Shown: positions 14,132 to 62,922 of the stretch, one piece after another | Layout: every line of letters begins with the position of its first letter | Numbering within the stretch: position 1 is the stretch's first letter | Assembly (NCBI GenBank): GCA_947476645.1 | Contig: CANJRM010000003.1 | Span: 1-64,000, forward strand | DNA length: 64,000 nt | Direction: 5' to 3' | From: Bacteroidota bacterium | Lineage (GTDB): Bacteria; Bacteroidota; Bacteroidia; Chitinophagales; LD1 | Notes under the pieces: model-generated | What the model was told of the DNA's origin: nothing | Seen by the model: only the letters and a program-made list of their open reading frames with translations | Databases searched by the model: none | Position numbers and translations under genes: made by a program

Positions 14132-14446
14132 AACTGAACACTTCCAATAATTAACTGAAAACTTCAAATCGAGTACTGGATTTTATAAATTAAGAACTAA
14201 ACACTTCGAATTTAGTACTAACTTTTATAAATCTTAGACTAAACACTTGGAATCGAGTACTGAATTTTATAAATCCAGTACTGAATTCTTTGTATTCAGT
14301 ACTAAACGCTTCGAATCGAGAACTGAATTTTATAAATTAAGAACTAAACACTTGGAATTCAGTAATAACTTTTATAACTTTTAGACTAAACACTTGGAAT
14401 CGAGTCCTTAATTCTTCGTATCGAGTAATGAACACTTCGTATCTTG
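14132..14446. repeat. Array 1: 15 consecutive imperfect 21-bp units, noncoding
   Basis: Hand-registered: units begin at 14132, 14153, 14174 ... 14426 without indels; e.g. aactaaacacttcgaatttag, tactgaattttataaatccag, tactgaattctttgtattcag. Confidence 0.93.
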
Positions 14447-14666
14447 TTTATTCCTGAATAAAACGAGTGGTTTTGTGGCAGTTTTGTCAGTAAACATCAG
14501 TCATAATATCATTCTGTGTTCTATAACTTGATTTTACACGTTTGCTCTGTGCTTTCAAGAATTCATTCGTTGCCATTAAGCGTTTGTTAGTCTTATCTCC
14601 AATAACATAGAATTCCGCTCATTTCTCTATGGTTTCATAACCGCTTTCATATTCTCTCCATTCTTC

Positions 14667-14674
14667 TATATTTG
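14667..14674 (+). promoter_or_regulatory. Bacteroidetes-type -7 element TATATTTG upstream of secDF
   Basis: Matches TAnnTTTG; 53 bp before ATG 14728. Confidence 0.5.
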
Positions 14675-14727
14675 CGCGCTCTTGCCAAAAAGCAGGGCTT
14701 ATTTTTTAGTAAAAAAACAAATTTCAC

Positions 14728-17700
14728 ATGCAGAATTTAAGAGGCGTAATTAAGGCACTTACTATCATTTTGGTAATTGTTTGTATTTACCAATTGTCGT
14801 ACACCGCGCTTTCGGGTATGGTAGAAAGAAAAGCAGATGCTTATGCTGCGGGAATGGTTACAACCACAGTGCCGTCAGGTTTAACACCAGCACAGGAAGT
14901 GGCTTACCGCGATTCGCTTGATTTGGTAGCGAAACAATACCGCAGAAATTATCTCGATTCAGTTTCTGGTATTCCAGTGGTGAATGTGCCTGGCTTGAAA
15001 GATTTTTTCACTTACAAATTTTGCCGCGACCACTCGCTTTCGCTGGGTCTTGACTTGAAAGGCGGTATGAGTTTGATTATGGAAATTTCGGAAGATGATG
15101 TGCTTCGCAGATTGTCTTACAACAGTCACAATGCGCAATTCAATAAGGCATTGGAAAACGCAAAAGAAAAACAGAAAGATGACCAACGCGATTTCTTAAC
15201 CATTTTCAAAGAAGAATTTGAAAAGCTGAATAAGGATGCGAAACTGGCGGCTGTGTTTGCTTCAATTGAATCTTACCAAGGCAAAATCAATATCAATTCA
15301 TCGAACGATGAAGTGGTTACTGTGTTGCGCAAAGATTTTGATGGTGCTATTCACAATACGTTCAACGTATTGAAAACACGTATTGACCAGTTTGGTGTGG
15401 CTTCGCCAAATATTTCGTTGCAGGAAAACACCGGACGTATTATGTTGGAATTGCCGGGTGTAGATGACCCTGCACGTGTGCGCAAACTTTTGCAACAAAC
15501 TGCGCAGTTAGAGTTTTGGGATACTTACGAAACCAAAGAAGTGTTGAACTACTTAGGCGATGCTAACACTGCGTTACGCGATGCATTAGCTGCTCAAAAA
15601 GAGTTGAAAGATTCTTCTTCAACTACTGCAACTGTTGACTCTTCGGCTAATGAATCAGTTTTGTTTGGCGATTCATCGCTTACATCGGCTAAAGATTCGA
15701 GCGGCAAAACAACAGCTAAAAAAGATACTTCAAACAAAAACTCAAATCCTCTTTGGGAACTCTTGTATCCTAATTTAACGCAGGACGGAAAAGATGCAGG
15801 TGACGGACCAATGGTTGGTCGCGCATTGGGAAAAGACACCGCAAAAATCAATCGCTTGTTAGCGAAGGATATTGTTCGCTCAGTATTGCCACGTAATTTG
15901 AAATTACTTTGGAGTGCTCACTCATTAGTAAAAGACGGAAACGTTTATGGTTTGTATGCTATTCAGCAAAATCCATCAACTCCCGAAGCTCCGCTAGGTG
16001 GTGATGTAATTACGGATGCTTATCAATCGTTTGACCAGTTTGGAACACCAGAAGCAGACATTGCAATGAATGCATTGGGCGCAGCTAAATGGGAGAAGAT
16101 GACAGAAGCCGCAGTAAACGGAAACGTTGGTGGAAAGGTAGTGAAGAAATGTATTGCTATCGTTTTGGATAACCGCGTTTTCTCGGCACCACGTGTGCAA
16201 CAAAAAATTGCCGGTGGTCACTCACAAATTACAGGAATTGAAAACCTCGAAGAGGCGGTTGACTTAGCCAACATTTTAAAGAGCGGTAAACTCGAAGCTA
16301 AAACTGTAGTTATCGAAGAGCAGGTGATAGGACCTTCATTAGGTAAAGAATCTATCCGCGCGGGTTTAATTTCTCTCTTGCTTGGATTCTTATTGGTGTT
16401 CTTGTTCATGGTAATGTATTACAGCAGTTCGGGATTCATTGCAAACATTGCCATGTTCCTCAACTTATTCTTCTTGGTTAGTTATATGGTGGCACATGGT
16501 GCATCGTTCACACTTCCTGCTATGGCTGGTATACTTCTAACGCTAGCAATGGCGGTAGATGCCAACGTAATCATCAATGAGCGTGTGCGCGAAGAGGTGG
16601 CACGTGGTAAAGGTTTGCGCTTGGCGGTTGACGAAGGGTTCAGCCATTCATACAGTGCCATTATTGACGGTAACTTAACTACCATGATTATTGGTATTGC
16701 CTTAACCATTTTCGGAATTGGTGCGGTGCAGGGCTTTGGTTATGTATTGGTTTGGGGATTGATTACTTCCATGTTTACTGCGGTGTTGGTATCGAGAGTA
16801 TTCTTCGATTCTGCTTTTAGCCGCAATTGGAATGTAACTTTCGGAAACAAGTTCACAAACAATTTATTCAAGAACACGAACTTCGATTTCATTGGAAAAC
16901 GGAAACTGACTTACTCTATTTCTACTATCATCTTCCTCGTAAGTTTTGCTTCTATCATTTTCTACGGATTTGACTTAGGAGTAGATTTTAAAGGTGGAAG
17001 AAGTTATGTAATTCAGTTTGATAAAGATGTAACTACCGAAGGCGTTTCTAAATCATTGGAAGCAACATTAGGAACTTCACCGCAAGTGAAAACTTACGGA
17101 AGCAACAATCAGGTTTCGGTTACTACAGCTTTCATGATTGATTCTGCAGGTCCTGTTACTGACAGTATTGTTGAAGCAAGAATTTACGAAGGTGTAAAAC
17201 CTTTGTTTGCCGAGTCACCAACACTCGAAGTTTTCAGAGTGAAGAATGTGAAGAGCTCGGTTAAGATTGAAGCAACTATTGCCGATGATATTCGCAAGAG
17301 TGCGTTGTGGGCAATCTTGTTTAGTTTGGGTGGTGTGTTCTTATACATCTTTGTTCGTTTCAGAAAATGGGAGTATGCAACAGGCGCTATTGTGGCGTTG
17401 ATTCACGATCCGGTTTTGGTGTTGGGTGTGTTCTCGTTGTTCCGCCACATTCTACCGTTCTCTTTAGAAATTGACCAGAACATAGTTGCCGCTGTGCTCA
17501 CCTTGATTGGTTATTCGGTGAATGATACGGTAGTGGTGTTTGACCGTATTCGTGAGTCGGTTGGATTACACCCTACACGCACTTTGACTCAAAACGTAAA
17601 TGATTCTATCAACCAAACATTGAGCAGAACAATTATGACGGTGGTTACGGTGTTCTTAGTAGCACTTATCCTGTTCTTATTTGGAGGAAGCCCAATCAAA

Positions 17701-17808
17701 GGATTTGCCTTTGCGTTGATTATCGGCTTGCTGATAGGAACATACTCTTCTATTTTTGTGGCATCGCCTATTATGGTTGATTTGAGCAACAGAAAGAAGA
17801 AAGCCTAG
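14728..17808 (+). CDS. secDF: Fused protein translocase subunits SecD-SecF
   Basis: LGLDLKGGMSLIMEI; AMAVDANVIINERVREE; second half LGVDFKGGRSYVIQF ... GYSVNDTVVVFDRIRE. Confidence 0.97.
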   Translation: MQNLRGVIKALTIILVIVCIYQLSYTALSGMVERKADAYAAGMVTTTVPSGLTPAQEVAYRDSLDLVAKQYRRNYLDSVSGIPVVNVPGLKDFFTYKFCRDHSLSLGLDLKGGMSLIMEISEDDVLRRLSYNSHNAQFNKALENAKEKQKDDQRDFLTIFKEEFEKLNKDAKLAAVFASIESYQGKININSSNDEVVTVLRKDFDGAIHNTFNVLKTRIDQFGVASPNISLQENTGRIMLELPGVDDPARVRKLLQQTAQLEFWDTYETKEVLNYLGDANTALRDALAAQKELKDSSSTTATVDSSANESVLFGDSSLTSAKDSSGKTTAKKDTSNKNSNPLWELLYPNLTQDGKDAGDGPMVGRALGKDTAKINRLLAKDIVRSVLPRNLKLLWSAHSLVKDGNVYGLYAIQQNPSTPEAPLGGDVITDAYQSFDQFGTPEADIAMNALGAAKWEKMTEAAVNGNVGGKVVKKCIAIVLDNRVFSAPRVQQKIAGGHSQITGIENLEEAVDLANILKSGKLEAKTVVIEEQVIGPSLGKESIRAGLISLLLGFLLVFLFMVMYYSSSGFIANIAMFLNLFFLVSYMVAHGASFTLPAMAGILLTLAMAVDANVIINERVREEVARGKGLRLAVDEGFSHSYSAIIDGNLTTMIIGIALTIFGIGAVQGFGYVLVWGLITSMFTAVLVSRVFFDSAFSRNWNVTFGNKFTNNLFKNTNFDFIGKRKLTYSISTIIFLVSFASIIFYGFDLGVDFKGGRSYVIQFDKDVTTEGVSKSLEATLGTSPQVKTYGSNNQVSVTTAFMIDSAGPVTDSIVEARIYEGVKPLFAESPTLEVFRVKNVKSSVKIEATIADDIRKSALWAILFSLGGVFLYIFVRFRKWEYATGAIVALIHDPVLVLGVFSLFRHILPFSLEIDQNIVAAVLTLIGYSVNDTVVVFDRIRESVGLHPTRTLTQNVNDSINQTLSRTIMTVVTVFLVALILFLFGGSPIKGFAFALIIGLLIGTYSSIFVASPIMVDLSNRKKKA

Positions 17809-17810
17809 TT

Positions 17811-17845
17811 AGATAAAAGACGATAGGTTATAGACAATAGAAAAG
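17811..17845 (-). repeat. Degenerate heptamer block (agataaa agacgat aggttat agacaat agaaaag; reverse complement of the GTCT-type unit)
   Basis: 5 x 7 bp register, weaker match. Confidence 0.45.
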
Positions 17846-17875
17846 CGTCCCGCAACTTTTGCGGGACGCTTTTTC
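17841..17875. terminator. Rho-independent terminator
   Basis: AAAAGCGTCCCGCAA-CTT-TTGCGGGACGCTTTTT downstream of secDF. Confidence 0.92.
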
Positions 17876-17936
17876 TTTGTGACATAAGTCAGTGATCTTA
17901 CTAAACTGTGTCATAACTTACCAGGAAGCGACCAGC

Positions 17937-17944
17937 TACATTTG
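17937..17944 (+). promoter_or_regulatory. -7 element TACATTTG
   Basis: Matches TAnnTTTG, 20 bp before CBS-protein ATG. Confidence 0.5.
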
Positions 17945-17964
17945 CGTTACAAAAACAAAATACT

Positions 17965-18381
17965 ATGTCAAAGAAAATTTCTGTTTCTCGCCAAATGACA
18001 CGCAATGTAATTGTTGCTAATACTGCCAATAAATTCAATCAGGTTATGGAGTTCTTTACTGATTTTAATATTCAGCATTTACCTATAGTGGAAAACGACC
18101 GATTAATTGGAATCTTAAGCATCAATGATGTTATGAAATATATCGGTAAGAAACTCCGAGCCGGTAGCGCGTTTAATCTGGCATCGCTGGATGCTGTGTT
18201 TGATATAAAAGAGGTGATGACTGCAAATCCTGTTTGTGTAAGCCCTGATGATGATTTTTCGAAGGTGGTGGAAATATTGTCGGCAGGTAAATTCCAATCG
18301 GTTCCTGTGGTTGAGGAAGGAGTTATTGTGGGAATAATCACTAACAAGGATGTGGTTAGAGTTTATCAAGAGACTAACTAA
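17965..18381 (+). CDS. CBS-domain pair protein
   Basis: VMEFFTDFNIQHLPIVENDRLIGILSINDVMKY ... SVPVVEEGVIVGIITNKDVVR. Confidence 0.9.
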   Translation: MSKKISVSRQMTRNVIVANTANKFNQVMEFFTDFNIQHLPIVENDRLIGILSINDVMKYIGKKLRAGSAFNLASLDAVFDIKEVMTANPVCVSPDDDFSKVVEILSAGKFQSVPVVEEGVIVGIITNKDVVRVYQETN

Positions 18382-18429
18382 ACTTTAGTGAATGGCTGGA
18401 AGTTGTAATTTTTCTGCTTTAGCATAAAA

Positions 18430-19425
18430 TTAGCTCAACAACTCCTGCACTTTTTTCAATTGCTCTTTTGAGCCCATAACTATTACACGGTTGCCGGGGC
18501 GAACCACGGTTTTTGAAATCGGGTTAAGATGGAATTCACCTTCAGAAGTTTTTAAACCAAGTAATGTAGCGCCAGTTTGTTTCCAGCAGTTGAGTTCTTC
18601 TAATGAAATAGTAATGGCCGATTCAATTTCTTCAACGCTGAAGTGTTCATTATGCTGGGTGGCGAGGAGGTCAACAAATTCTTTAACATCGGGGCTGGTG
18701 ATAAGGGTAGCCATGTGTGCACCACCAATTTTATCGGGCATAATTACATTGTTTGCACCAGCGGTTTTCAATTTTTTAACCGAAGAATCATTCGATGCAC
18801 GGCTGATGATTTTGAGATTAGGATTCAGCTCGCGTGCGGTAAGTACTACAAAAACATTATCGGCATCATCGGGCAATGTACTGATAAGCGCAGCGGCATG
18901 TTCAATACCTGCTTCAATCAAAGTTTCATCGCGCGTGGCATCATCTTCGAGGTAGTAATCAATTTCAAAGGGCAAATCATCTCTGCGGCTTTCTTTTTTT
19001 TCAATGACCACATAGTTATGGCGGCTGTTGTGAAAAATGCCGGCTGCCTCGCGACCATTGCGACCAAAACCGCAAATAATAATATGTCCTTTCAGTTCTT
19101 TAATGGAGTTTTTCATTTTGAAAAGTTTATACGTTCTTGAAAATTCGCCTTCGAAAACATAACTCGAAAGTTGCGCAATAAAATAGGTAGCCACCGCCAG
19201 GTTTACGGTTATTAGAAAAATAGTGAACACTCTGCCCGCATCGCTCAGCGGCTTTACTTCGGTAAAACCCACCGTGGAAAGTGTAATTACGGTCATGTAA
19301 AGCGATTCGATGGGCGTATAATCTTCAATGCCCATAAAGCCCGCCATACCTATTACCACTATGCAAAAGAAGGCACCCAGCGATATATAAATTTTAAAGA
19401 AAGGCGAATTGCGAAACGAGTTCAT
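18430..19425 (-). CDS. Potassium channel with RCK/TrkA-N and TrkA-C domains
   Basis: SLYMTVITLSTVGFTEVKPLS pore loop; HIIICGFGRNGREAAGIF; C-terminal PGNRVIVMGSKEQLKKVQELL. Confidence 0.93.
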   Translation of the reverse strand: MNSFRNSPFFKIYISLGAFFCIVVIGMAGFMGIEDYTPIESLYMTVITLSTVGFTEVKPLSDAGRVFTIFLITVNLAVATYFIAQLSSYVFEGEFSRTYKLFKMKNSIKELKGHIIICGFGRNGREAAGIFHNSRHNYVVIEKKESRRDDLPFEIDYYLEDDATRDETLIEAGIEHAAALISTLPDDADNVFVVLTARELNPNLKIISRASNDSSVKKLKTAGANNVIMPDKIGGAHMATLITSPDVKEFVDLLATQHNEHFSVEEIESAITISLEELNCWKQTGATLLGLKTSEGEFHLNPISKTVVRPGNRVIVMGSKEQLKKVQELLS

Positions 19426-19557
19426 GATTTATTTGAGCGAATGAAAATAAAATTAGTGGTGGAATAAAGTTTGTGCAATAAAACTAAACGAAGCAGCGAG
19501 GTTCATTTCTATTTCGGTGTTTTCGATTTTATGATGAAAAAAATTTTCGGTTTGCAC

Positions 19558-19872
19558 AAGTTAACCGTTAATCAGCCCAAATTATCGGTTAAACAGCCCA
19601 AGTTAACCATTAAACAAACCCGATTATCGACTAAACAGACTAGATTATCCAATATTTTATCGAAGAGAGCGATAGTTTTGATTAAAGCAACGATAGGTTT
19701 GATTAAAGTAGCGATAGTTTTGATTAAAGCAGCCATAGTTTTGATTAAAGTAGCGATTGTTTTGATTAAGAAATCCATTATTCTGCTCCTTTTATTGATT
19801 AATCTGTTCCCTTTTCTGATAATTCTGTTCCCTTTTTCGATTATTCTGTTACTATTTTTCAAAGTAACAATG
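19558..19872. repeat. Array 2: about 14-15 imperfect 21-bp units in three sequence sub-families
   Basis: Units start 19558, 19579, 19600 ... 19831 with no indels; e.g. aaattatcggttaaacagccc -> aaagtagcgatagttttgatt -> ccttttctgataattctgttc; the last unit (19852) is weak. Confidence 0.92.
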
Positions 19873-20033
19873 CAGTTTTATGGTGTTTTGATGTGTTTTT
19901 GGCTTGTTCAATCAGCTTTAAAGGTAAAACAGGTAGTTTGTTCTATTTCGAAGAACACAGAATTGCTCTTTGGCGGCAAGCGCTGCCCAACCAGGGTTAA
20001 GCCCCTGGTGTTTTTGCCTAAAAAAGTCAATTC

Positions 20034-22472
20034 TTATTTCAACTGGGCTTCAATAATCTTTCTTTCCCAGTCTTTCCATTTGGTGAGTTCAAAAATTGCT
20101 TTCGCCATTTCTGAATTAGAAGGGGTTTTTACCAAACTCTTCAGGCATTTTGAAGCCGGATTGGCCAGGCGGCTGTTGGTATAAGTGCAGGCGTTGAAAA
20201 GGTTTTTGATTACCTCTTCATTGCAATACTCTAATCGTTCAATGGCTTCGAAAGCACGGGTGCGGGTTCTGAATTCAAAATGATTCGAAGCATAGGTGGT
20301 CAGTTCTTTTCTCGCTTCTTCAACATTTGCGGTGCCGTATTTGATTTTCATTTCGAGCCATGCCATGCGCACATTATCGTTTAGGCCATACAGGTTTTTT
20401 GTTTGCGCTAAATAGGTTTGGGCTTTAGCAGAAAACTGTTTACACAGTTTGCGCAACGCTGTTTCAATATTGATGTAAGAAGTATCGCTGAGTATTTTTT
20501 CTACATCGGGCACAATAGCCGCAGGAAAAGTATCGAGGTAGTCCAAAACACTTCTGCGTACCATCATATCTTTATCATGTAAAGCAGTTTGAAACAGTTG
20601 ATAGCTTGCCGCTGTGGTATCTTTAGAAAGCTGATGAACAATTTCAGCTTTCAGCGTTTGAAAATTATTTTCCTTGAAAGTTTTCACCAGCAAATCTCGC
20701 TTTCTTTCAATCGATGTATCGAGCAAAGCGCGCAAAGCATCATATCTATCCATGAAATGTTTTGCCTTCAATAACTGCGAACTCAGCTCATCGAAACTCT
20801 TTTTGAATTCAACGCTCTTAATAATGTTAGAACCCGGGTCAAAGAGCACATAATCAATTTCGGCACCGGGTGTTGCATTTAAATAAACGGTATCAGCGGC
20901 ACGACTCAACCATTCTTTTGAACTTGAAGAAGAACCATCTTTGAAATGAGCTTCAAACACAATCGGCATTTTGAAGTAGCCGGTTAACTCATCTACTTTT
21001 TGTTTTTGATTTACAAAAACAGCCACACGTTCTTTTTGTTTTTCGTAGCTCACAACATATTCCGGAAAGCCCGCACGATTAATCCACTCATCAAAAAACC
21101 AATCGAGGTTAACTCCCGCGGTTTCCATAAACGTCATTTTAAAATCGCTGGTAAGAACGTTTGAATAAGCGTGTTTCTTTAAATAATTTGTCACACTTCT
21201 TTTGTAAACCGAATCACCAACAACGTATCGAATCATATCAATCACCGCACTTCCTTTAGGATAATGCCTGTTACTACCGCCCATGGTGTGCGCCACCGGA
21301 TAACGATTGATTTTATCGGCATTCATAGCGTTGTTCTGCTCCATTCGTCTGTCCCATTCGTAGCGGTCTTCACCCAAAACATGATGAATGAATTGTTTGG
21401 CGTAATAAGTGGCAAAACTTTCGTGTAACCAATGGTGAGTACCGCTGTATTCGGTAATATAATCTCCAAACCATTGATGGGTTAGTTCATGGGTATTGGT
21501 AGAAACATAAGGGCGTTCTAAAACGGTGCGCTTATCGTTCAAATAAAAATCTCCGTAAACAGTTGCCGTAGTATTTTCCATAGCGCCATACATAAAATCC
21601 TGCACGGGCACATTGCAATACGTTTCCCACGGATAGCGCACTCCGGTTTGTTCGCAAAGCCAATCCATCATCTCAGCACTGTATTCATAAGTAGGGTTTG
21701 CGGTTTCAGGATGGTCGGCATAATAGTACTGGCGGCTTACCATTCCGTTCCTGCTCTTGAAATCTTTGTAAGCATATTTATCAATGCCTATCATAATTAG
21801 GTAAGGAACCATCGGTTTGCTCATCGCATAATCCCAGGTAGCGGTCCCATCTGCATTTTTCTTTTTCTCTTTCAGCACACCGTTTGAAACAACCGTGTAT
21901 GCCGAATCAAAAGTGATAGTCGTCTCGGTAATCAATTTATCATTCACATCATCGTAACATGGAATCCAATGACGGTTGTCAATGCCCTGTCCTTGTGTCC
22001 ATATTTGTTTGCGCGTGAAATATCTGTCGTTGGTTGTATTCTTCGCATCCACATTCCATCCGATGAAATAGAGTCCTTTTCTTGGTGTGGCTTCGTAACT
22101 TATTTCAAGTTTGTATTGCTTATTCCAATCAAGCGGGGGAAGAAAACGAACAATCAAACCAAAACTATCGGTAACGAATTTAGTTTCCTTTCCGTTTAGC
22201 GAAACAGATTTGATATCAATGCCGGGAGCATTCAAAAACAAAGTATCTGTTACATACTGAATGGGACGAAAATCATACTTCACTTTGCCAATTACTTTGC
22301 CTTCCTGTGTGTTGAACTTTACATCCAGATTCATTTTCAAAAAGTCAACATTATGTTCTCTTATTCTGCCGTTGTCATCGCGCAGATAACAGATGGAAGT
22401 ATCTTGAGCAAGCGAAAAGTGAAAAGTAAAAAGCGAAAAGTAAAGGGTAAGAACAGTGAAGAGAAATTTCAT
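20034..22472 (-). CDS. M1 family metallopeptidase (aminopeptidase N-like)
   Basis: Signal peptide; GAMENTTATVYGDF; THELTHQWFGDYIT...HHWLHESFATYYA. Confidence 0.95.
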   Translation of the reverse strand: MKFLFTVLTLYFSLFTFHFSLAQDTSICYLRDDNGRIREHNVDFLKMNLDVKFNTQEGKVIGKVKYDFRPIQYVTDTLFLNAPGIDIKSVSLNGKETKFVTDSFGLIVRFLPPLDWNKQYKLEISYEATPRKGLYFIGWNVDAKNTTNDRYFTRKQIWTQGQGIDNRHWIPCYDDVNDKLITETTITFDSAYTVVSNGVLKEKKKNADGTATWDYAMSKPMVPYLIMIGIDKYAYKDFKSRNGMVSRQYYYADHPETANPTYEYSAEMMDWLCEQTGVRYPWETYCNVPVQDFMYGAMENTTATVYGDFYLNDKRTVLERPYVSTNTHELTHQWFGDYITEYSGTHHWLHESFATYYAKQFIHHVLGEDRYEWDRRMEQNNAMNADKINRYPVAHTMGGSNRHYPKGSAVIDMIRYVVGDSVYKRSVTNYLKKHAYSNVLTSDFKMTFMETAGVNLDWFFDEWINRAGFPEYVVSYEKQKERVAVFVNQKQKVDELTGYFKMPIVFEAHFKDGSSSSSKEWLSRAADTVYLNATPGAEIDYVLFDPGSNIIKSVEFKKSFDELSSQLLKAKHFMDRYDALRALLDTSIERKRDLLVKTFKENNFQTLKAEIVHQLSKDTTAASYQLFQTALHDKDMMVRRSVLDYLDTFPAAIVPDVEKILSDTSYINIETALRKLCKQFSAKAQTYLAQTKNLYGLNDNVRMAWLEMKIKYGTANVEEARKELTTYASNHFEFRTRTRAFEAIERLEYCNEEVIKNLFNACTYTNSRLANPASKCLKSLVKTPSNSEMAKAIFELTKWKDWERKIIEAQLK

Positions 22473-30779: not shown

Positions 30780-32387
30780 ATGAAGAGCTTGCTGAAAAAT
30801 TTTTTTATCACCACGACAATTGCATTTTGTTGCCAATACACCTTTGCGCAGGTAAGCAACGAAGAAGTTATTGTAGTGAAAGAATACGAAGCCACCATAC
30901 AGGATGCGCAGAAGGTGAACATTCAACCGAATATTCCTGAAGTGGAAGAAACAAAACCCGTGCTTACTTACAGCGTTCCGGCTAAAGATTACAAAGACAT
31001 TCCCTTCGAAGCCAATCCGCTCAAGCCGCTATCCATGAGCAAAGAGAAGCTGGAGAAATACAACACTTCGTTTATCAAAATTGGTTTTGGCAGTCAGTTG
31101 ATGCCGCTGGCGCAACTGGCTTACAACGACAACAAAACAAAAAATCTCCAATTCGGAATTTTCTATAATCACCTTTCGGCACGCGGTTATAAAATAAAGA
31201 ACCAGCACTTTAGTGACGATGAAGCGGGCGTGTATCTCAAATATTATCCCAAAACATTTGAAGTAGGAACCAACTTCACCTTCCGCAATTACCGCACACA
31301 TTTTTATGGTACCGATAGTTCGTTCGAAGAAAAAAAAGTGCGCGAGGTTTACAGAACTTACGATGCCGATGTGCATTTTAAAAACGCGCAACGCAACAAA
31401 GCCGAAGTAGATGTGAGCCAAAACATTCACTTCAATTATTTGCAAGAAGTTTTCGGCAAAGCCAATGAATGGTATGTGGGCGGCACTACCGATTTTAAAA
31501 AATCATTTAAGAAATTTCACTCTGCCGGTTTCCGGTTCTTCTTCGATGCTTCTAAATTGAAAAACGATTCGCTGAGCTTGCAGCGCACCATTTTTACACC
31601 TACGATTGGCTATGCATTCAACAACGATGACTGGAAAGCCAGCGGCTATTTCGGCATTGCCGTGGATGGAAAAAATCCGGTGTTCGCCTGCGAACTGCAC
31701 GTAGAAAAACGCCTGTATGAGCATTCCATTATTGCTTATCTCGACTATAACCACAACGTTCAAAAGAACTCGCTGCTCAGTTATTCGCTCGTTAATCCTT
31801 TCATTCAAAACTCGGTGACCATAAAAAATTCTACCGTTGGCGATTTTGGAACGGGCTTTAAAGGCACGGCACAAAACTTTTCTTACAACGTGGCTTTTCA
31901 TTTAAACCACATTACGAACCTGCCGCTGTTTGTAAACGACACTGCCGACACCAAACGCTTCCGCATTATTTACGAAGCCAAAGCCCTCGTGTATAATGTG
32001 CATTTCGAAGGTGGCTATAATGTAAAAGAGTGGCTGCGCCTTTCGCTGAGTGCTGACTACAACCTTTATGCGCTCAATACTGAAAAGCGCGCCTGGCACC
32101 AGCCCGCGTTTAAAACCACGCTGCGCGTTAACTATATCTGGAAAAACAAAATCTCGCTTAACCTCGATGTGTATGGCATTACTGCTGCTTACGCAAAACT
32201 TACAGATGGCAAAGAGAAACAACTCAACGGCACTGCCGACATCAACCTAAGTGCCGAGTATATCATGAACAAACACATTTCGTTCTTCGGCTCGCTAAAC
32301 AATATTGCCAATTTCAAATACCAGCCCTGGAACCATTACCCGGGCTATGGCATCAGCGGAATGGTGGGGGCTAAGTTTTCTTTTTAA
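30780..32387 (+). CDS. TonB-dependent-receptor-like outer-membrane beta-barrel protein (no plug domain)
   Basis: Signal peptide (FAQVSNEE), alternating beta strands, C-terminal aromatic GYGISGMVGAKFSF. Confidence 0.7.
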   Translation: MKSLLKNFFITTTIAFCCQYTFAQVSNEEVIVVKEYEATIQDAQKVNIQPNIPEVEETKPVLTYSVPAKDYKDIPFEANPLKPLSMSKEKLEKYNTSFIKIGFGSQLMPLAQLAYNDNKTKNLQFGIFYNHLSARGYKIKNQHFSDDEAGVYLKYYPKTFEVGTNFTFRNYRTHFYGTDSSFEEKKVREVYRTYDADVHFKNAQRNKAEVDVSQNIHFNYLQEVFGKANEWYVGGTTDFKKSFKKFHSAGFRFFFDASKLKNDSLSLQRTIFTPTIGYAFNNDDWKASGYFGIAVDGKNPVFACELHVEKRLYEHSIIAYLDYNHNVQKNSLLSYSLVNPFIQNSVTIKNSTVGDFGTGFKGTAQNFSYNVAFHLNHITNLPLFVNDTADTKRFRIIYEAKALVYNVHFEGGYNVKEWLRLSLSADYNLYALNTEKRAWHQPAFKTTLRVNYIWKNKISLNLDVYGITAAYAKLTDGKEKQLNGTADINLSAEYIMNKHISFFGSLNNIANFKYQPWNHYPGYGISGMVGAKFSF

Positions 32388-32497: not shown

Positions 32498-32547
32498 ACA
32501 TTTTTTTGTTTGTCATGCTGAGCTTGTCGAAGCACAAACAAAAAAAT
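32498..32547. terminator. Hairpin CATTTTTTTGTTTGT...ACAAACAAAAAAATG containing a GTCATGCTGAGCTTGTCGAAGC element; probable bidirectional terminator
   Basis: 15-bp perfect arms, A/T-rich flanks, convergent gene junction. Confidence 0.7.
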
Positions 32548-32588: not shown

Positions 32589-32902
32589 GCCAATACAAAC
32601 TAGACTTGCAGGAACTCCGGCTACACATCTAGGAGGAGCTGCTAGACGTGTAGGAACTTCGGCTAGACGTGTAGGATGACTCACTACACATGTAGAATGT
32701 CGAACTGGAGTTGCCCCGCATCTCCGTCCATGTGCCCCGTGACTCCGTCCATGTGCCCCGTGACTCCGTCCACGTGCCCCGCGGCTTAGTCCATGTGTCC
32801 CGCGGCTCCGTCCATGTGTCCTGCGGCTCCGTCCATGTGTCCCGCGGCTCCATCCATGTGCCCCGCGATTCCGTTCACGTGCCCCACGGCTCGGGGCAAC
32901 CG
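32589..32902. repeat. Array 3: about 15 GC-rich 21-bp units in two sub-blocks
   Basis: aggaacttcggctagacgtgt-type (32589-32693), one 20-bp transitional unit (32694-32713), then ccccgtgactccgtccatgtg-type units from 32714 in strict 21-bp register. Confidence 0.93.
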
Positions 32903-32966
32903 ACTAAAACAATAAAAATGATGCTTTTTGCCTGATTTCACACCAAAACCGACCATTCCGGCTATT

Positions 32967-33001
32967 GTCTTGTGTCTCGTGTCTTGTGTCTAAAGTCTGT
33001 T
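32967..33001 (+). repeat. Heptamer tandem repeat, 5 units: gtcttgt gtctcgt gtcttgt gtctaaa gtctgtt
   Basis: Read directly. Confidence 0.88.
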
Positions 33002-34471
33002 CTACTCTTTTATAACCTTCCCGCTTTGCACCACTTGGTTAGGGGCGGTGTAGCGCCAAAGGTAAATGCCGTTGGGGAACTGGCTTATATCTACCTTGGT
33101 TTGGCGGTTGAAGTTATTGGCGGTGCTGCTCAGCTTTTTGCCGTCTATATTATATAGGTCTAAACTGCCGCCTTGCAGCAAAGGGTTTTCGATGTCGAGG
33201 GAGAAAGAGGAAGTGGCGGGGTTGGGGAAGATTGCGAATTGCGGATTCTCAATTGCGGATTGTGAAATGCCGGTAAGGCAGTTTTCTATTTCGCAGCCGT
33301 TGCTGTCTAATTTTAGGAACCAGCCTACTTGGGGTGGTGCCCCACTTTGCTGGCATTGCCCAACAGCTATTAACGACATGTCAGGCAACTCGTCTATATC
33401 AGTTAAATAATTCTTGCTCCCTGCTGTGGTTATACCTACATATTTTCTTTCCCAAATTATATGACCTGCTGTATCAAGTTTTACTATCCATCCCTGAGCA
33501 TTATTATAATTACCACAAGCAATGTAGTTACCATCATATAAAATATGTATGTCCGTAAACCCTGTTACATCCCCTTTATATCCTCCTGAAAATGTCCACT
33601 GCTTGTTAAATGCACTATCCATTTTTACAATGGTAGCGGTAAAAAAAACCTGATTAACTGATTGCTCACACTTTTTCTGCGCTCCATAAATAAATCCACC
33701 ATCGCTTGTTTGTGTTAAACCCTCTGCCACATAAGTGCTGTCGTTAGGGTCGAACCATTGCCTTACAAGAGTACCTGCGGTGTCAACTTCGAGAAGCCAA
33801 GTGTGGGCGCGCGCGTGGGTTTGGTTTAAATCGTCTGCTGCCGCTCCTAACATTAGATTACCGTTCGATAGCTTGATAATGCTGTGGGCTTCATCTCTTA
33901 CTGTTTGGTGATAATATTTTTCCCATAACCTGTTTCCTGCTGAATCAATTTTCATCAGAAAAACATCTCCATTATATCCTAAGCCATCTAATCGAACACC
34001 CGTTATAAAATAGTCAGAGCCATCCTGGAGCAAGCTACAACCGTAGTAAGTATGAGTATTCGGTGTGTAATACTTAAAAACGACAGCCGAGTCAAGATTA
34101 AGTTTAGCTATACAGAAAAGTAAATAGGCAAGCGAATCATCAGCACCACCTGTAAAGGCAATTCTGCCATCTTTTGTTTTTATTAAGGCATTCGAGTAAG
34201 ATGTATATGAGGTAGTTTGAGAATCTACCTGCAATTTATACTGTGTTAACTCGCCATAGAGATTAATGTTACCTACAATTGACTTTACTACAAGGTTAGA
34301 GCCATAAGCCGAGCCTGTAAAAATGTAAGAGGTATCAATAAATAATACGCTGCCAAACAGCATGGCGGGCCTGTTGTCAATATAAGTCTTATTCCAAACC
34401 GTTTGCGCCTTTACACAAACACCCAAGCCGCAAAGCAGCAAGAGGAGGATGGTTTTTGGGGAGGGGAGCAT
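33002..34471 (-). CDS. Secreted T9SS type A sorting-domain protein
   Basis: Signal peptide; C-terminal FAIFPNPATSSFSLDIE...DLYNIDGKKL...FPNGIYLWRYTAPNQVVQSGKVIKE. Confidence 0.88.
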   Translation of the reverse strand: MLPSPKTILLLLLCGLGVCVKAQTVWNKTYIDNRPAMLFGSVLFIDTSYIFTGSAYGSNLVVKSIVGNINLYGELTQYKLQVDSQTTSYTSYSNALIKTKDGRIAFTGGADDSLAYLLFCIAKLNLDSAVVFKYYTPNTHTYYGCSLLQDGSDYFITGVRLDGLGYNGDVFLMKIDSAGNRLWEKYYHQTVRDEAHSIIKLSNGNLMLGAAADDLNQTHARAHTWLLEVDTAGTLVRQWFDPNDSTYVAEGLTQTSDGGFIYGAQKKCEQSVNQVFFTATIVKMDSAFNKQWTFSGGYKGDVTGFTDIHILYDGNYIACGNYNNAQGWIVKLDTAGHIIWERKYVGITTAGSKNYLTDIDELPDMSLIAVGQCQQSGAPPQVGWFLKLDSNGCEIENCLTGISQSAIENPQFAIFPNPATSSFSLDIENPLLQGGSLDLYNIDGKKLSSTANNFNRQTKVDISQFPNGIYLWRYTAPNQVVQSGKVIKE

Positions 34472-41847: not shown

Positions 41848-42816
41848 ATGAATTTTGGAATTGCTATACACGGAGGAGCGGGAACCATTCTTCGCTCATC
41901 CATGACCCCCGAAAAAGAAAAATTGTTCACTGATGCTTTGCGAACTGCTCTGCAACAGGGCTATGCTGTTTTAGAAAAAGGGGGAAGCGCCCTCGATGCC
42001 GTAGAAACTGCTGTACGCAGTTTAGAAGATTGTCCGCTGTTTAATGCGGGTAAAGGTGCTGTGTTCAACAACGCAGGAACACACGAAATGGATGCGAGCA
42101 TCATGAGTGGAAAAGATTTAAGTGCCGGTGCGGTGAGTTTGATTAAGCATGTCAAGAATCCTGTTTCATTAGCGCGCGCTGTAATGGAAAAAAACGAACA
42201 CGTTTTTCTTTGCGGTGATGGTGCCGAAGATTTTGCGAAACAAATGAACCTTGAATTTGCCGGTGATGAATATTTTTATGATGCGTTTCGGTTTGAGCAA
42301 TGGAAGAAAGCGCAGGAAACGGAAGGAAGTTTTTTAGACCACAATATAGAGACACAAGACACAAGACACAAGACACAAGACAATCCAAACGACAAGAAGT
42401 TTGGGACAGTAGGGGCGGTGGCTTTAGATAAGGATGGTAATCTTGCTGCCGCTACTTCAACAGGTGGAATGACGAATAAAAAATTCGGACGTGTTGGCGA
42501 CTCACCTATTATTGGTGCGGGCACTTATGCCAATAACAACACCTGCGCTATCTCCTGCACGGGTCACGGAGAACTATTTATTCGTTCAGTCGTGGCTTAC
42601 GATATTTCTGCTTTAATGGAATACAAAAATCTTTCGCTGCGCGAAGCGTGTGAAGAAGTGGTGATGAAAAAACTCGTAAAGATTGGTGGCGAAGGTGGCT
42701 TAATTGCCATTGACAAACACGGCAATATCGAATTGCCTTTTAACTCAGAAGGAATGTACCGCGCTATGAAAAGCAGTGGTGGCACAGAGAAGGTAGAGAT
42801 TTATAAGAGCATTTAA
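41848..42816 (+). CDS. Isoaspartyl peptidase/L-asparaginase (Ntn-hydrolase)
   Basis: FGIAIHGGAGTI; FNAGKGAVFN...MDASIMSG; autoproteolysis site KKFGTVGAVALD; STGGMTNKKFGRVGDSPIIGAGTYA. Confidence 0.95.
   Translation: MNFGIAIHGGAGTILRSSMTPEKEKLFTDALRTALQQGYAVLEKGGSALDAVETAVRSLEDCPLFNAGKGAVFNNAGTHEMDASIMSGKDLSAGAVSLIKHVKNPVSLARAVMEKNEHVFLCGDGAEDFAKQMNLEFAGDEYFYDAFRFEQWKKAQETEGSFLDHNIETQDTRHKTQDNPNDKKFGTVGAVALDKDGNLAAATSTGGMTNKKFGRVGDSPIIGAGTYANNNTCAISCTGHGELFIRSVVAYDISALMEYKNLSLREACEEVVMKKLVKIGGEGGLIAIDKHGNIELPFNSEGMYRAMKSSGGTEKVEIYKSI
42350..42383 (-). repeat. Heptamer repeat (AGACACA x4 + partial) inside the asparaginase reading frame
   Basis: agacacaagacacaagacacaagacacaagacaa; reverse complement of GTCTTGT unit. 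Confidence 0.92.
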
Positions 42817-52213: not shown

Positions 52214-52381
52214 GAGTTCTGAATAAAGATAGTTACAAACTCCAGTTCCTGCAAAATTTTCAGCCACATCTCCATCCAAACCTCCGTTCTGTCATTGATT
52301 CATCTCATTCCTCTGCCAAATTGTAATCATCTCAATCGTGGACTCACATTTGCCACCTTGCACCCGCTTGCATTTTGCATT

Positions 52382-52416
52382 GTCTAATGTCTTGTGTCTA
52401 ACGTCTAAAGTCTATT
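52382..52416 (+). repeat. Heptamer tandem repeat, 5 units: gtctaat gtcttgt gtctaac gtctaaa gtctatt
   Basis: Read directly; ends 4 bp before the clpB start codon. Confidence 0.9.
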
Positions 52417-55018: not shown

Positions 55019-55053
55019 ATTGAAGTTCTCTCCTTTAGTTAGTGTGTCAATGG

Positions 55054-55087
55054 AGTCCGGGTCGCTCGACCCGGGCTTCTGTTTTTT
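55054..55087 (+). terminator. Rho-independent terminator of clpB
   Basis: CCGGGTCG-CT-CGACCCGG followed by gcttctgtttttt. Confidence 0.85.
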
Positions 55088-55090
55088 AGA

Positions 55091-56497: not shown

Positions 56498-56506
56498 ACA
56501 GTCAGT

Positions 56507-56824: not shown

Positions 56825-56863
56825 AACAGTCTTTGTTTAATATTAAACGAAAAACGGCTGTAC

Positions 56864-58006: not shown

Positions 58007-58128
58007 GTAAGGGTGTAAAATTGGGAATGCGAGTTTATACAAATACTTTGTAATTCCATGCTATGGCGGGTTAAAGAATGGTAAAGGTTTAATGGCTGTA
58101 ATAAGGTGGAAACATCTGCGGATTTTTC

Positions 58129-58170
58129 AAAATAAAAAAGCAACCTCGTTTGAGGTTGCTTTTTTATTTT
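58129..58170. terminator. Rho-independent terminator
   Basis: AAAATAAAAAAGCAACCTC-GTTT-GAGGTTGCTTTTTTATTTT. Confidence 0.93.
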
Positions 58171-58188
58171 ATCGACTGTTTCTTAATC

Positions 58189-60300
58189 TTATTTCTCCAC
58201 TACAAATCTTCCAAGCATTCTTCTTGCTCCTGTTGCATCAACAAGGTTTGCGAGGTAAACCCCGTTGGTGAGTTCTGCAACAGAAATGTTTACTGTTTTG
58301 CTTCTTTCGTTTACAGATTTTGCTTTTTCTCCAAGTGCATTATAAATTTCAATAGCTGAATAATTGCGAACCGCTTCATCGTTGTTATTGCGCATATCGA
58401 TGGTGAGTAGATTGGTTGCAGGGTTTGGATAAAATTGAATACCGGAAAGAGATATTTCGTGCAAGCTTTCGCAATCAATCTGAACAGTGTCACACATTGT
58501 TGAACTTCCAAATTGATTATAAGCAGTTAAACAAACCTGTTCAGTCGCAAATTGATAGAATAAGTTAACTGTATCTTGGTTGTATAAGGTAGTGTCAGGA
58601 TAAATTTGACCGCCCGGTAATGAATGGAAGTGCCAAATTATACTATCTGCACCCGAGGAATTATTTACTACATAAAAGTTGGTACAAAAATAAATTTGCA
58701 AATCTGTAATTCCTGCAACTGGTACTAACGCTGGATTATAAACTGAATTTACCACAAACATTCCCGTATCACAAAGCGCGGGGCTGCCGCCATCGCAAAT
58801 AACATAGTAGCAGGTATCGCTGCCCACAAAAGTTGAATCGGGTGTGTAAAGTATGCTCGTGCAATTTCCTGTAGGAGCTATTGAAAAAGCTGAAGAACCA
58901 TAAACAAGTGTGAGGCAAAAATTATCTCCATCGGGTTCAACATCGTTAGTGCCTACGTTTAGTGTAAGTCCATCCGGTTGCTGCACACTGGCTGTATCAT
59001 CTACTGCCACAGGTGCATTGTTAACGGCAGAGATATTAGTAACGTGAACACTGTCGCAAAACGTATTGCTTCCGGCAGCATTGGTGGCAGTTAAGCAAAC
59101 GTAGTAAGCACCGTTAGCTGTATATACATGCGAAGGACTTTGAGAACTTGAATTTCCTCCATCACCAAAAGTCCATGCCCATGAAGTAGGTGTATTGGTT
59201 GACTGGTCGATAAAATTTACTAAGCCACCACTTGGGTTAGCCCAGGTAAAAGATGCTACCGGTTGAACGGCTGCATTGCTTACTACAACCTGCTTACAAA
59301 CCTGAACGCTGCTGCCCCCAGCATTGGTGGCAATCAAACAAACATTGTAAGTGCCGTTAGTGGCATAAACGTGTGTTGGATTTTGAGAAGTAGAAGTTCC
59401 TGCATCACCAAATGTCCAGGCCCATGAAGTTGGATAGAAGTCAGACAAATCAGTAAATGCAACAGAGCCTCCCGCACCAAGTACAAAACTGAAATCTGCC
59501 ACTGGTGCCATAGGAGGAATGAGAGAGTATGTAGCTGAAGTTACATTGTTCACAGAATCGTATTCGAAACTCATAACTGACCCCTTTGTTTCCTTAGCCG
59601 GATAGGTATAGCGAACGGTGGTTGCTGTTTTATTAGAAACAGTGGTCCACACAGGAAGAAACTGACTTACCTGTGCTTCTATAAGCGTAGTATTGGTATC
59701 TTTTCTTTTTACACGTAAACACTTATATGATCCTATTGGTGTAGAAACCTTACCCCATGCATCAACAGTATCTGTATAGTTTCCGGTAATGGTTAGCCTA
59801 ACCTGATATACACCTGGCTGCCCTACCTGGCTGCCGGGAACTGTTTTTGTTAACGAATACGTTCCACTGAAATTTCCTCCAAATTGAGTCGGGAAATGAA
59901 ATACATCGGGTGCTGTTTGATAAGCTGCAGACAAAATGGACCCTGCAATGGCTCCCTGAAAACCCATAAGTGTTTGTTTGAGCAAAGTTGTTTTAGTGAA
60001 AAGAAAATTAGTACCATCCGGTGTTATCGCAAGGTCAGTACCTGGAACATTAGATAGCTGATTAGCCGTAGGAGTAAGATAATCAAGCGTATCTTGTACC
60101 GCCCAAACCAAATTACTAAAATCAAATACCTGGTTTGCTCCCTTATTTCCAAAGTTAATAACGGGAAGTGGCAGGGTATCTTTTCTGGTTATCTGGGTCC
60201 AACCAGCAGAAGCAATATCTGTACTAGTAAAAGTAATTGGAGTTTGTGCCTGTGTAAAGGCAATGGTAAGTACAAAAGTCAGGAGTAATATTCTTTTCAT
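58189..60300 (-). CDS. Secreted PKD-domain protein with T9SS type A sorting signal
   Basis: PTSWAWTFGDAGTSTSQNPTHVYATNGTYNVCL (PKD); C-term GIQFYPNPATNLLTIDM. Confidence 0.9.
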   Translation of the reverse strand: MKRILLLTFVLTIAFTQAQTPITFTSTDIASAGWTQITRKDTLPLPVINFGNKGANQVFDFSNLVWAVQDTLDYLTPTANQLSNVPGTDLAITPDGTNFLFTKTTLLKQTLMGFQGAIAGSILSAAYQTAPDVFHFPTQFGGNFSGTYSLTKTVPGSQVGQPGVYQVRLTITGNYTDTVDAWGKVSTPIGSYKCLRVKRKDTNTTLIEAQVSQFLPVWTTVSNKTATTVRYTYPAKETKGSVMSFEYDSVNNVTSATYSLIPPMAPVADFSFVLGAGGSVAFTDLSDFYPTSWAWTFGDAGTSTSQNPTHVYATNGTYNVCLIATNAGGSSVQVCKQVVVSNAAVQPVASFTWANPSGGLVNFIDQSTNTPTSWAWTFGDGGNSSSQSPSHVYTANGAYYVCLTATNAAGSNTFCDSVHVTNISAVNNAPVAVDDTASVQQPDGLTLNVGTNDVEPDGDNFCLTLVYGSSAFSIAPTGNCTSILYTPDSTFVGSDTCYYVICDGGSPALCDTGMFVVNSVYNPALVPVAGITDLQIYFCTNFYVVNNSSGADSIIWHFHSLPGGQIYPDTTLYNQDTVNLFYQFATEQVCLTAYNQFGSSTMCDTVQIDCESLHEISLSGIQFYPNPATNLLTIDMRNNNDEAVRNYSAIEIYNALGEKAKSVNERSKTVNISVAELTNGVYLANLVDATGARRMLGRFVVEK

Positions 60301-60400
60301 TGATGATTTTTTTTTGCGGGCTAAAACTAAAAACTTATCGGCACGCGGCAATTGAAATTTCAGCTGCTGTTACTGGCTGAATGAGTTCATGGAGCATAAT

Positions 60401-61860
60401 CTATTTCTTAATCAACAATACTCCGGCATTATCGGGAAAATCTAAAGCCACGGTATAGTTATTCAATTGCGATGCTTCATCGTGCACTGCGTAGTAAAAT
60501 AAAGTTTGTGATGTGGTGTCGGTTTCTTTATGATACTCCGTAAGATTCAGCCACGGGGTTTTTCCGGTAATGCAATAGAAGCCAAATGAAGGATTGAACA
60601 ACCAATGCGTATTTAAGTCGATAGTTTTTACTTCTGGATGTTCCTTCATATAGCTTTGCAGATAAGCATGCACTTTGTAAGTATTACAATCGAACCGCCA
60701 CTCATGTACGCTTTGTAAATTTACAGAGTGCAAAAAATGAGCAACGAAAAACAGCATTATAAAAGACGTTATACCATAGCCAATCCATCGTAAATTTTCA
60801 ACGATAGTGAGCAACACAAAGAATAATACAAACATGAAAAGCACATAATAACTCAAGGCGGTTCTGCCGTTTAAAAACGGAGTTCCTAAAATGATTGCCT
60901 GCATCATGTTTACAAACCATACCAGCACAATCAGTAAAACTACAATCACTAAAGGATTTGAAAGCGCAGCTTTTTTGCGCGTAATAATTTTGAATAGCGA
61001 AAACGAAAAAGCAGTTATGAGAACACCAATTGCAAAGGATGTTAACGCTTTTACCAGCTTCGGATAATAACTTGCTCCATAAAAAAGCAGTCGATTACAC
61101 TTTGAAACGTATCGTGATAGAAACTTTCTTTAGCCCAGTAAACAAACTGATTGGTGGTTGACATTTTATAAAGCGGCTCGTAACTCAAGGCTAAAAATGC
61201 AGCAGCAAGTAACGCGGTGCAGAAAAGATGCAGCACTACTTTTGATATCTTTTCTTTTTTTGAATAGGCATTCACCATATAAATGAATGCCAATAAAATT
61301 TGCACTGCTGCCCAGTAAATAAGTAAAGTGAAGTTTGCATAGGCAGCGAGCATTGCAAACACAATAGAGAGGTAATACCACTTTTGTTTTAGCGAAGAAG
61401 AAAACAGCAACAGCGAATAAACCGAACAGGCAAGGAACGCATTCGACATACCATAGCCCCGCGCCAGTCCATAAAAATCAACTAAGAAAGGATTGCAAAA
61501 CAAGATGAACGGTAAGCAAAACAATAAACCATGTTTCGAGAAATACCGAACAGCTACTAAGTAAAGAACCGTTAAAAACAGAAACATCGAAATTACGTTG
61601 GGTAATCGAACGCTCCAGGGTTCAATACCCCATAAGTTTTCGCAAACTTTAATCAGCAAACTGTTGAGGATATGATTGCTGGGCCAGCAATCTGATTTTA
61701 TAATTCCTGCAAAATCCCAGGTGGCATAGTAAACGGTAGCAGATTTTTCATCGTGCGTAATAGGAAGGTGGATAGCCTTATAGGCTACTACATAAATCAG
61801 GAACGAACAAAAAAACGCTACTATAATTTTTGCGGACAAATTGTTTTTCAAGTCAAGCAT
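60401..61860 (-). pseudogene. Polytopic membrane glycosyltransferase-like protein split into two ORFs (61051-61860 and 60401-60949) by an apparent -1 frameshift at a T6 tract
   Basis: Reading through: ...SVIDCFF | YGASYYPKLVKALTSFAIGVLITAFSFSLFKIITRKKAALSNPLVIVVLLIVLVW...; A6 on + strand at 61081-61086. Confidence 0.8.
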
Positions 61861-61887
61861 GTTTTTTATTGGGCGCCAAAATAGTTT

Positions 61888-62631
61888 TCAATTAGCAGAA
61901 ATGTTCAACAAATTTTCTGCCGCCCGCTCTATGTATTCCTCTATAGCGGGTAAACTGTTATACAGTTGTTCGAACGATTCAATAACGAAATATTTATTCT
62001 GAATTCTGTCTTTGAAAAAATGTGAAGCAAAAATTTCGGCTACATCATAAGGAAGAAATACAGGCGCATGGCTCATAGAATATTCTGTTTCGCCTGACGA
62101 TGAAATAATTCCTGCACCGTAAATTTTGCGCTGATTGTTTTCGAACTTTAAACCAAACTCAATCGTGAACCAGTAAATGCGACTCATGAGTTCAATGATT
62201 TGCGCATTATCAATATGTGCCAAAGCAATTTTGCTCAAGCCGCTTAGAAATTCACAGTAGTGTAAATCGGTAAGCAGTGGTATATGCCCAAACACATCGT
62301 GAAACATATCGGGCTCTTCAATATAATTCAACTGGCTCATTTGCCGCAACCAACACGTGGCGGGAAATTTCTTTTGGCTCAGCAACACAAAAAAATCTTT
62401 ATCGGGAATTATTCCCGGCACTGCCTGTATATGCCAGCCCGTTAGTTTTTCGAGCAACGCGTTTGTTTCTTTAAAATCAGGGATACGGTCGGCATGGAAG
62501 TTTATCTTTTGCAACCCATCAATGTATTTTATGGTTACAGTGGTTTCCAGATTTTTCATTTGCCGCTCAAAGAGAATCTTCCAGACTTCAAAATGCTCGG
62601 GGGTGTAGGTGTCGTACTGTTGTTGTATCAT
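61888..62631 (-). CDS. phhA: Phenylalanine 4-monooxygenase (aromatic amino acid hydroxylase)
   Basis: FPATCWLRQMSQLNYIEEPDMFHDVFGHIPLLTD; YWFTIEFGL; GAGIISSSGETEYS. Confidence 0.93.
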   Translation of the reverse strand: MIQQQYDTYTPEHFEVWKILFERQMKNLETTVTIKYIDGLQKINFHADRIPDFKETNALLEKLTGWHIQAVPGIIPDKDFFVLLSQKKFPATCWLRQMSQLNYIEEPDMFHDVFGHIPLLTDLHYCEFLSGLSKIALAHIDNAQIIELMSRIYWFTIEFGLKFENNQRKIYGAGIISSSGETEYSMSHAPVFLPYDVAEIFASHFFKDRIQNKYFVIESFEQLYNSLPAIEEYIERAAENLLNISAN

Positions 62632-62673
62632 ATTCTTTCTGTGGTCAAAGTAATTAAACCACAGCTATATCTT

Positions 62674-62922
62674 AAACTACGTGCTATATAAATAAGTCAA
62701 GACGATGCTGGATTACTTCATAACGTAAACATGGGTCAGCCGTTAACGAAGTAAAGTAACAAACCGTTACCAGGTGCCCCTTGGTAACGGTTTAAACTAA
62801 CACTACGTTAGCATGGGTCAAATGTTTACGGTTTAAAGCTTCATATCGTAAGCGTGTGTCTCACTATTACGAAGTGTTGTTGTATTACGTTGCCTTGTGT
62901 CTTATGCTAACGTAGTGAATCT
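62674..62922. repeat. Array 4: six ~41-bp units each with two inverted half-sites (ACGTTA ... TAACG)
   Basis: acg/ccg/tcg cores at 62723, 62764, 62805, 62846, 62887 (41-bp steps) and at 62746, 62787, 62828, 62869, 62910 (41-bp steps). Confidence 0.9.

Follow-up and report, generated by a model that had tools for sequence, protein, structure and literature searches.

Intergenic arrays with a common ~21-bp spacing and dyad symmetry but mostly unrelated sequences in a Bacteroidota genome

Intergenic Arrays and Flanking Genes in the Window

The window analysed here is a stretch of 64,000 nucleotides from a Bacteroidota genome (G000), available as a 3.56-Mb MAG in 201 contigs. It harbours four intergenic arrays, listed below with their neighbouring genes.

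13564-14073, + strand: CxxCxxCC-domain gene, left neighbour of array 1
14132-14446, no strand: array 1, 15 units of 21 bp, of two alternating types (42-bp period), AT-rich
14728-17808, + strand: SecDF gene, right neighbour of array 1
18430-19425, - strand: TrkA-type ion channel gene, with array 2 on its 5' side
19433-20049, no strand: lineage-specific stretch of 617 bp carrying array 2
19557-19868, no strand: array 2, 15 units of 21 bp, three successive sequence blocks in one common register
20034-22472, - strand: M1 peptidase gene, with array 2 on its 3' side
30780-32387, + strand: gene for a 535-aa protein without a Pfam match, left neighbour of array 3
32600-32709, no strand: array 3, block a, 21-bp units with dyads CTAGACGTGTAG / CTACACATGTAG
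32710-32900, no strand: array 3, block b, 21-bp units, GC-rich (TGCCCCGCGGCTCCGTCCATG)
33002-34471, - strand: gene for a type IX secretion protein (Por_Secre_tail), convergent neighbour on the right of array 3
61888-62631, - strand: biopterin-dependent hydroxylase gene, with array 4 on its 5' side
62690-62922, no strand: array 4, 41-bp period split ~18/23
63016-63393, - strand: gene for a 125-aa protein whose sole match, HTH_17, is sub-threshold, with array 4 on its 3' side

An earlier note on this DNA had described four arrays of 315, 315, 314 and 249 bp at these places. They are present with those lengths, and the phenomenon proved larger than the window alone shows. Compared with Markov shuffles, identity at lags 21 and 42 was 0.57 and 0.67 in array 1 (z 9.8 and 12.7), 0.68 and 0.63 in array 2 (z 13.8 and 11.7), and 0.70 and 0.67 in array 3 (z 16.3 and 14.4). 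The single 20-bp unit attributed to array 3 was not seen, the 21-bp register being kept in every window of this array. Array 4 follows the 41-bp period split 18/23 that had been described, with an identity of 0.51 at lag 41 (z 7.9), secondary lags of 18 and 23, and no 21-bp signal.

The dyads of array 1 are AGTACT and TTCGAA. This array matches its own reverse complement at 69%, and no second copy was found elsewhere in the genome. Block b of array 3 is bordered by GTTGCCCCG (32710-32718) and the inverse CGGGGCAAC (32892-32900), which form 9-bp inverted ends, while the half units of array 4 are of the TTACGTTAGCATGGGTC type, with inverted copies.

Period, Length and Sequence Across the Genome

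The sample of the source genome comprised 1,625,000 bases (46%); the ORF calls were mechanical, and the genomes are MAGs. It contained 33 noncoding periodic arrays, in 31 of which the strongest period was 21/42/63/84/105, 41/82 or 44/88 bp. The two exceptions were a 77-bp CRISPR-like array (L056) and a 51-bp array that has an open frame. In coding arrays from this DNA, the periods spread across multiples of three. The earlier note had named a lack of excess over shuffled controls as the outcome that would speak against its proposal; two Markov shuffles of the entire sample yielded no arrays, and the scan of 1.63 Mb placed the noncoding arrays in the clusters given above.

Mean identity in 54 arrays from four genomes (G000, G009, G004 and G008) was 0.457 at lag 21, 0.528 at lag 42 and 0.447 at lag 63, with 0.33 at lag 41 and about 0.26 elsewhere. 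When a shorter window was used, the fundamental period of 43 noncoding arrays from G000 and G009 was 21/42/63 bp in 35, 41 bp in 6 and 22/44 bp in 2. About 21 bp corresponds to two helical turns of B-DNA, and this relation, already pointed out for the window, is supported genome-wide. Period is thus a conserved property, as had been claimed; array length, claimed alongside it, is a tendency only (median 280 bp, range 111-501 bp in 51 arrays), with 10 to 20 unit copies per array.

Sequence similarity is not detectable between most pairs among the 55 arrays compared. At E 1e-3, eleven pairs can be aligned, of which four are clearly related and lie at different loci: L031/L033 (78%), L107/L250 (79%), L239/L249 (77%) and L020/L057 (64%). 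The similarity between L107 and L250 extends about 120 bp past the main array on one side, and exactly 42 bp are missing from one copy. These four pairs indicate that arrays are sometimes copied to new loci, so that the earlier statement that the arrays differ in sequence holds for most of them, a minority being recognisable copies.

Register and Dyad Symmetry

Departures from register are rare: among 340 windows in which a lag of 36-48 bp was clear, only 4 depart from 42. Simulated substitution:indel ratios of 20:1 and 100:1 put 23% and 5%, respectively, out of the 42-bp register; the indel counts have to be read with the caveat that detection through periodicity is biased towards indel-free arrays. 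The excess identity at lags 21L ± 1 shows no increase with L up to 12 units, and the identity between units drops along the array, from 0.569 at 2 units to 0.386 at 12.

The units are also symmetric. Best-phase Watson-Crick symmetry averaged 0.530 in 54 arrays, compared with 0.463 for mirror symmetry; two further pairings gave 0.437 and 0.440. These three comparisons control for the choice of the best phase, the chance level of the mirror control being equal to or above that of Watson-Crick pairing, and the dyad excess was significant in each of them (p ~6e-7 or less). Dyad symmetry was above mirror symmetry in 43 of the 54 arrays, with about one fifth showing no dyad excess. The dyad phase was exactly kept in 79 of 87 within-array window pairs of 30-45% identity, while that of the mirror control was not. 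The result was mixed for fully unrelated blocks within one array, which had the exact dyad phase in common in only one of four arrays. Covariation between arms was modest, as 54% of double changes preserved pairing vs 42-45% in controls. The succession of sequences can be followed at L028:11640-12350, where TTCTAATGCATTAGAA units are followed by CTCAGGTGCACC-type and later by CTTGCGTGCACGCAAG-type units in a single 21-bp register. A histogram of perfect-hairpin spacing was uninformative, its criterion being too strict.

Spacing and symmetry stay constant and the letters are mostly private to each array, pointing to a DNA shape, rather than a DNA word, that the cell uses or must build.

Double-Stranded DNA as the Level of the Signal

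A structured RNA was among the options listed in the earlier note and would consist of hairpin arrays transcribed in 5' or 3' untranslated regions. The arrays do out-fold their shuffles, with a mean z of about -3, but both strands fold equally (sense -2.75, antisense -2.78, p 0.67). When dyad-paired positions were oriented by the adjoining gene, 107 G·U pairs were observed for 156 expected and 105 A·C pairs for 142 expected, so that G·U was not preferred over A·C. This equal depletion, together with the like folding of both strands, argues against RNA. The orientation of flanking genes also equals background, and no Rfam family matches the window at the gathering threshold. We consider a structured RNA very unlikely.

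Decayed or hidden coding repeats of seven residues are hardly credible. They would be in keeping with a period equal to seven codons, with the rarity of indels and with the one open frame found in each of arrays 2 and 3. Against this, all six frames are stopped in 29 of the 33 noncoding arrays of the source genome, the 41- and 44-bp arrays change frame at every unit, and dyad symmetry is a property of DNA. The stops and the 41- and 44-bp periods argue against coding and support the noncoding nature proposed before. Array 1 is indeed rich in stops, which occur in 6/6 frames; array 3, said to be open on both strands, has just one of its six frames open.

Presence and Absence Across Genomes

The arrays are lineage-specific. 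At the array 2 locus, the matching flanks lie just 10-12 bp apart in two relatives (G014 and G015), vs the 617-bp stretch found here; in G014, 5 bp separate the M1 peptidase stop from the channel start, with no array 2. The locus of L028 holds unrelated, non-periodic DNA in three relatives. Array density reaches 31 in 1.63 Mb of G000 and about 20 in 0.37 Mb of G009, the loci of the latter having been partly chosen through matches, and no arrays of this kind were found in 326 kb of G014 and G015. The existence of close relatives without arrays implies that any role of the arrays is dispensable. Synteny is poor in the genus, and the positions of arrays 1 and 3 at synteny breaks were for this reason not counted as evidence.

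Among 80 named Bacteroidota loci, 22-bp arrays were found in Prevotellaceae, Prevotella and Hoylesella. The three tested (two in L189, one in L198) are dyad-symmetric, with values of 0.62-0.75 vs 0.44-0.55 in controls. Dyad symmetry was absent in the 21-bp arrays of L145 and L215 and in the 22-bp array of L163.

Neighbouring Genes

A distance of 80 bp or less separates 38 of 51 arrays from a gene, and 23 of those 38 face its 5' end. A genome-wide search for array-associated gene families gave none that was significant. Several small orphan families (F1-F7) have an array alongside in both G000 and G009. One F5 member has CarboxypepD_reg repeats; apart from these, no Pfam family exceeded the threshold in F1-F7, and the members run against NCBIfam matched no family.

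The two genomes yielded 157 reciprocal best hits, which are best hits within samples rather than proven orthologs, with G009 loci partly selected through matches. Six of these pairs are array-adjacent in both genomes: members of F1, F2, F3, F5 and F6, and a 528-aa protein. The array lies on the same side in 6/6, at 10-72 bp, and the proteins, mostly fast-evolving orphans, are 29-43% identical. Co-adjacency was significant (Fisher p 0.002), both overall and among pairs below 45% identity; conserved pairs (at least 45% identity) gave 0 concordant and 12 discordant cases. When the arrays of five of the six pairs, and those of the F7 pair, were compared directly, no significant similarity was detected (best E 0.014).

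F4 is divergent from F2, F6 or F5, with the array between, in 3/3 loci (L024, L247 and L248); in L024 the F4 gene is at 10280-10762. This family was found in only G000, G009 and G001 among 31 genomes. Both F4 and F6 occur in G000 and G009, which are rich in arrays; neither was found in G014, G015, G006 or G018; in G004, arrays are present and both families are missing. F6 combines a helical part with an fn3-like sandwich and matches generic fn3-type domains only. A structural model of F4 was too poor (mean pLDDT 49) to assign it as DNA-binding. An HTH_3 protein adjoins the L037 array.

Dyad symmetry, near-zero indels, lineage-specific presence, fast-evolving orphan neighbours and the copying of some arrays go beyond what had been noted for the window.

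A Phased Platform and Its Alternatives

The best fit among the options raised at the outset is a phased protein-binding platform, RNA being disfavoured and local amplification a live rival. We tentatively propose that the arrays may be helically phased double-stranded platforms for a symmetric DNA-binding protein. Their spacing is fixed, their dyads are symmetric at the double-strand level, indels are few, and both sequence and presence turn over; the period is held to about two or four helical turns despite mostly unrelated sequences, which speaks for the proposal. The same-side arrays of homologous genes in two species and the short distances to genes also favour it, while the modest covariation of the arms, the fifth of arrays with no dyad excess, the mixed phase of unrelated blocks, the dispensability, the background-like orientation of flanking genes and the lack of an array-associated gene family count against it. 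A symmetric unit in every 21 bp places a dyad axis on the same helix face each 10.5 bp, and a 42-bp array each 21 bp. A symmetric, cooperatively assembling DNA-binding protein would read this geometry and tolerate the letters, with selection maintaining spacing and symmetry as the sequence drifts. Slippage or unequal exchange would make arrays grow and homogenise, and they would occasionally be copied to new loci. Since many arrays lie directly at start codons, in some cases those of accessory orphan genes, the likely effect would be on transcription or silencing of the neighbour. Neither the neighbouring gene families nor the F4 model identified a candidate for the binding protein. A wider version is possible, though doubtful: a class of Bacteroidota chromosomal element defined by geometry alone, about 300 bp long and free in sequence, with helically phased dyads at ~10.5- or 21-bp steps, which might be read by a structure-reading, filament-forming protein and repeatedly remade beside accessory genes, as a shape-encoded chromatin or silencing element.

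The local amplification rival would make the arrays neutral or selfish minisatellites without selected function, in which replication or repair duplicates hairpin-prone DNA in ~21-bp steps and template switching at palindromes keeps the dyads. The decay of unit identity with distance is what local duplication predicts, and a clean 42-bp deletion separating two paralogous arrays of G009 as well as the gain and loss of arrays between species point the same way. However, such a mutational ruler must measure 21 bp exactly in many arrays, with almost no indels at ~44% divergence, and it leaves the consistent side of, and closeness to, homologous genes unexplained, so we hold it to be somewhat unlikely. 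Inheritance of the period from a single 21-bp palindromic, MITE-like ancestor, in one fast-evolving mobile family, seems improbable. The four cross-locus copies, the similarity of L107 and L250 beyond the main array and the lack of array 2 in two relatives would fit it, with BrickBuilt in Porphyromonas gingivalis as a precedent (PMC4596501); yet most pairs have no detectable sequence in common, common terminal repeats were not found, and inheritance alone would not purge indels at such divergence. Private operators, each bound by its own dimeric regulator encoded nearby so that sequences differ because specificities differ, are quite improbable. The divergent arrangement and narrow distribution of F4 and the HTH_3 protein beside L037 agree with them, but a recognisable DNA-binding neighbour is missing at most arrays, and the F4 model was poor. 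The phased platform is accordingly the reading that we retain, with the reserve expressed above.

Comparison with Known Systems

Plasmid iterons are direct repeats, of one sequence per replicon, bound by one Rep protein. Like them, the present arrays repeat in tandem at about two helical turns, so that sites face one side of the helix; unlike them, they do not form a single Rep-bound sequence at an origin, since tens of mostly unrelated, dyad-symmetric arrays are scattered in the chromosome over many contigs, beside ordinary or orphan genes. REP/BIME elements form one sequence family, scattered singly or clustered, and resemble the arrays as small intergenic palindromes in many copies; the arrays are mostly private in sequence and strictly periodic, in contrast with a high-copy single family. 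CRISPR arrays are likewise periodic and intergenic with partial dyad symmetry, whereas the units described here are diverged and have neither a constant repeat nor unique spacers. In ordinary bacterial minisatellites or VNTRs, tandem units also diverge and duplicate locally, but unit length is specific to each locus, while here it is nearly fixed across unrelated arrays.

No published description of such arrays was found in the open-access literature, the nearest being BrickBuilt of P. gingivalis, an intergenic minisatellite-MITE whose 23-nt tandem repeats occupy ~19 loci per genome, have dyad symmetry and are predicted to form stem-loops (PMC4596501). Intergenic palindromic minisatellites as such are therefore already known, and both systems are dyad-symmetric intergenic tandem repeats in Bacteroidota. 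BrickBuilt, however, has one repeat sequence at every locus, with a leader, a tail and terminal inverted repeats (PMC4596501), while the sequences of the present arrays are mostly unrelated, with no single repeat present at all loci. Their ends are inverted over 9 bp in block b of array 3 and show just an AT-rich AAATAA similarity in array 2, and no common ends were seen in related array pairs.

For each of BrickBuilt, REP, CRISPR, iterons, RNA and coding repeats, at least one defining feature does not fit the arrays. Should the geometry be read by a protein, the arrays would be a DNA signal encoded in shape, in a phylum that is large and poorly studied; if a mutational process makes exact 21-bp steps, it would be an undescribed DNA ruler. 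Each possibility is testable, and each would be new. Repeat families are normally recognised by their sequence; tens of arrays in this one genome have spacing and symmetry in common and mostly not sequence, so that homology searches miss them.

Arrays in Prevotellaceae and in other genomes

Arrays with a 22-bp period were found at four sampled loci of Prevotellaceae:

L189:4612-4879, 22-bp array
L189:6948-7245, 22-bp array
L198:13040-13317, 22-bp array
L199:4065-4175, 22-bp array
L200:8996-9146, 22-bp array

Their sequences differ from one another, and dyad symmetry was detected in all three of the arrays tested (both in L189, and that in L198). They apparently represent the same phenomenon as the ~21-bp arrays, with a different lattice constant.

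Array density in the second array-rich species, G009 (loci L103, L106, L107, L121, L126, L127 and L238-L250), is about threefold that of the window's genome, G000; no arrays of this kind were seen in 326 kb of the close relatives G014 and G015 together.

Orphan family F4

Members of this small protein family are encoded at three loci:

L024:10280-10762, F4 gene
L247:15103-15630, F4 gene
L248:15473-15964, F4 gene

At each (3/3), the gene is divergent and adjoins an array, across which lies a different orphan gene. F4 is a candidate array-binding protein.

Array 3 and other repeats

In array 3, block b has GTTGCCCCG (window 32710-32718) at one end and its exact inverse, CGGGGCAAC (32892-32900), at the other. 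Nearby, 26 bp including TGTCATGCTGAGCTTGTCGAAGCA (32509-32534) have an identical copy in G014 and G015, elsewhere in the neighbourhood and on the opposite strand. A ~65-bp stretch (L057:9051-9126) has numerous dispersed copies in these two genomes (81-91% identity) and may represent a conserved element, either a promoter or a repeat. The window also carries heptamer microsatellites of the TGTCTTG, AGACACA and TGTCTAA types:

414-449, heptamer microsatellite
32966-32998, heptamer microsatellite
42350-42382, heptamer microsatellite
52381-52414, heptamer microsatellite

Finally, G000 harbours a 3.4-kb array (L056:5135-8534; contig C17, second 20 kb), whose 77-bp period would fit, in size, a type II-C CRISPR.
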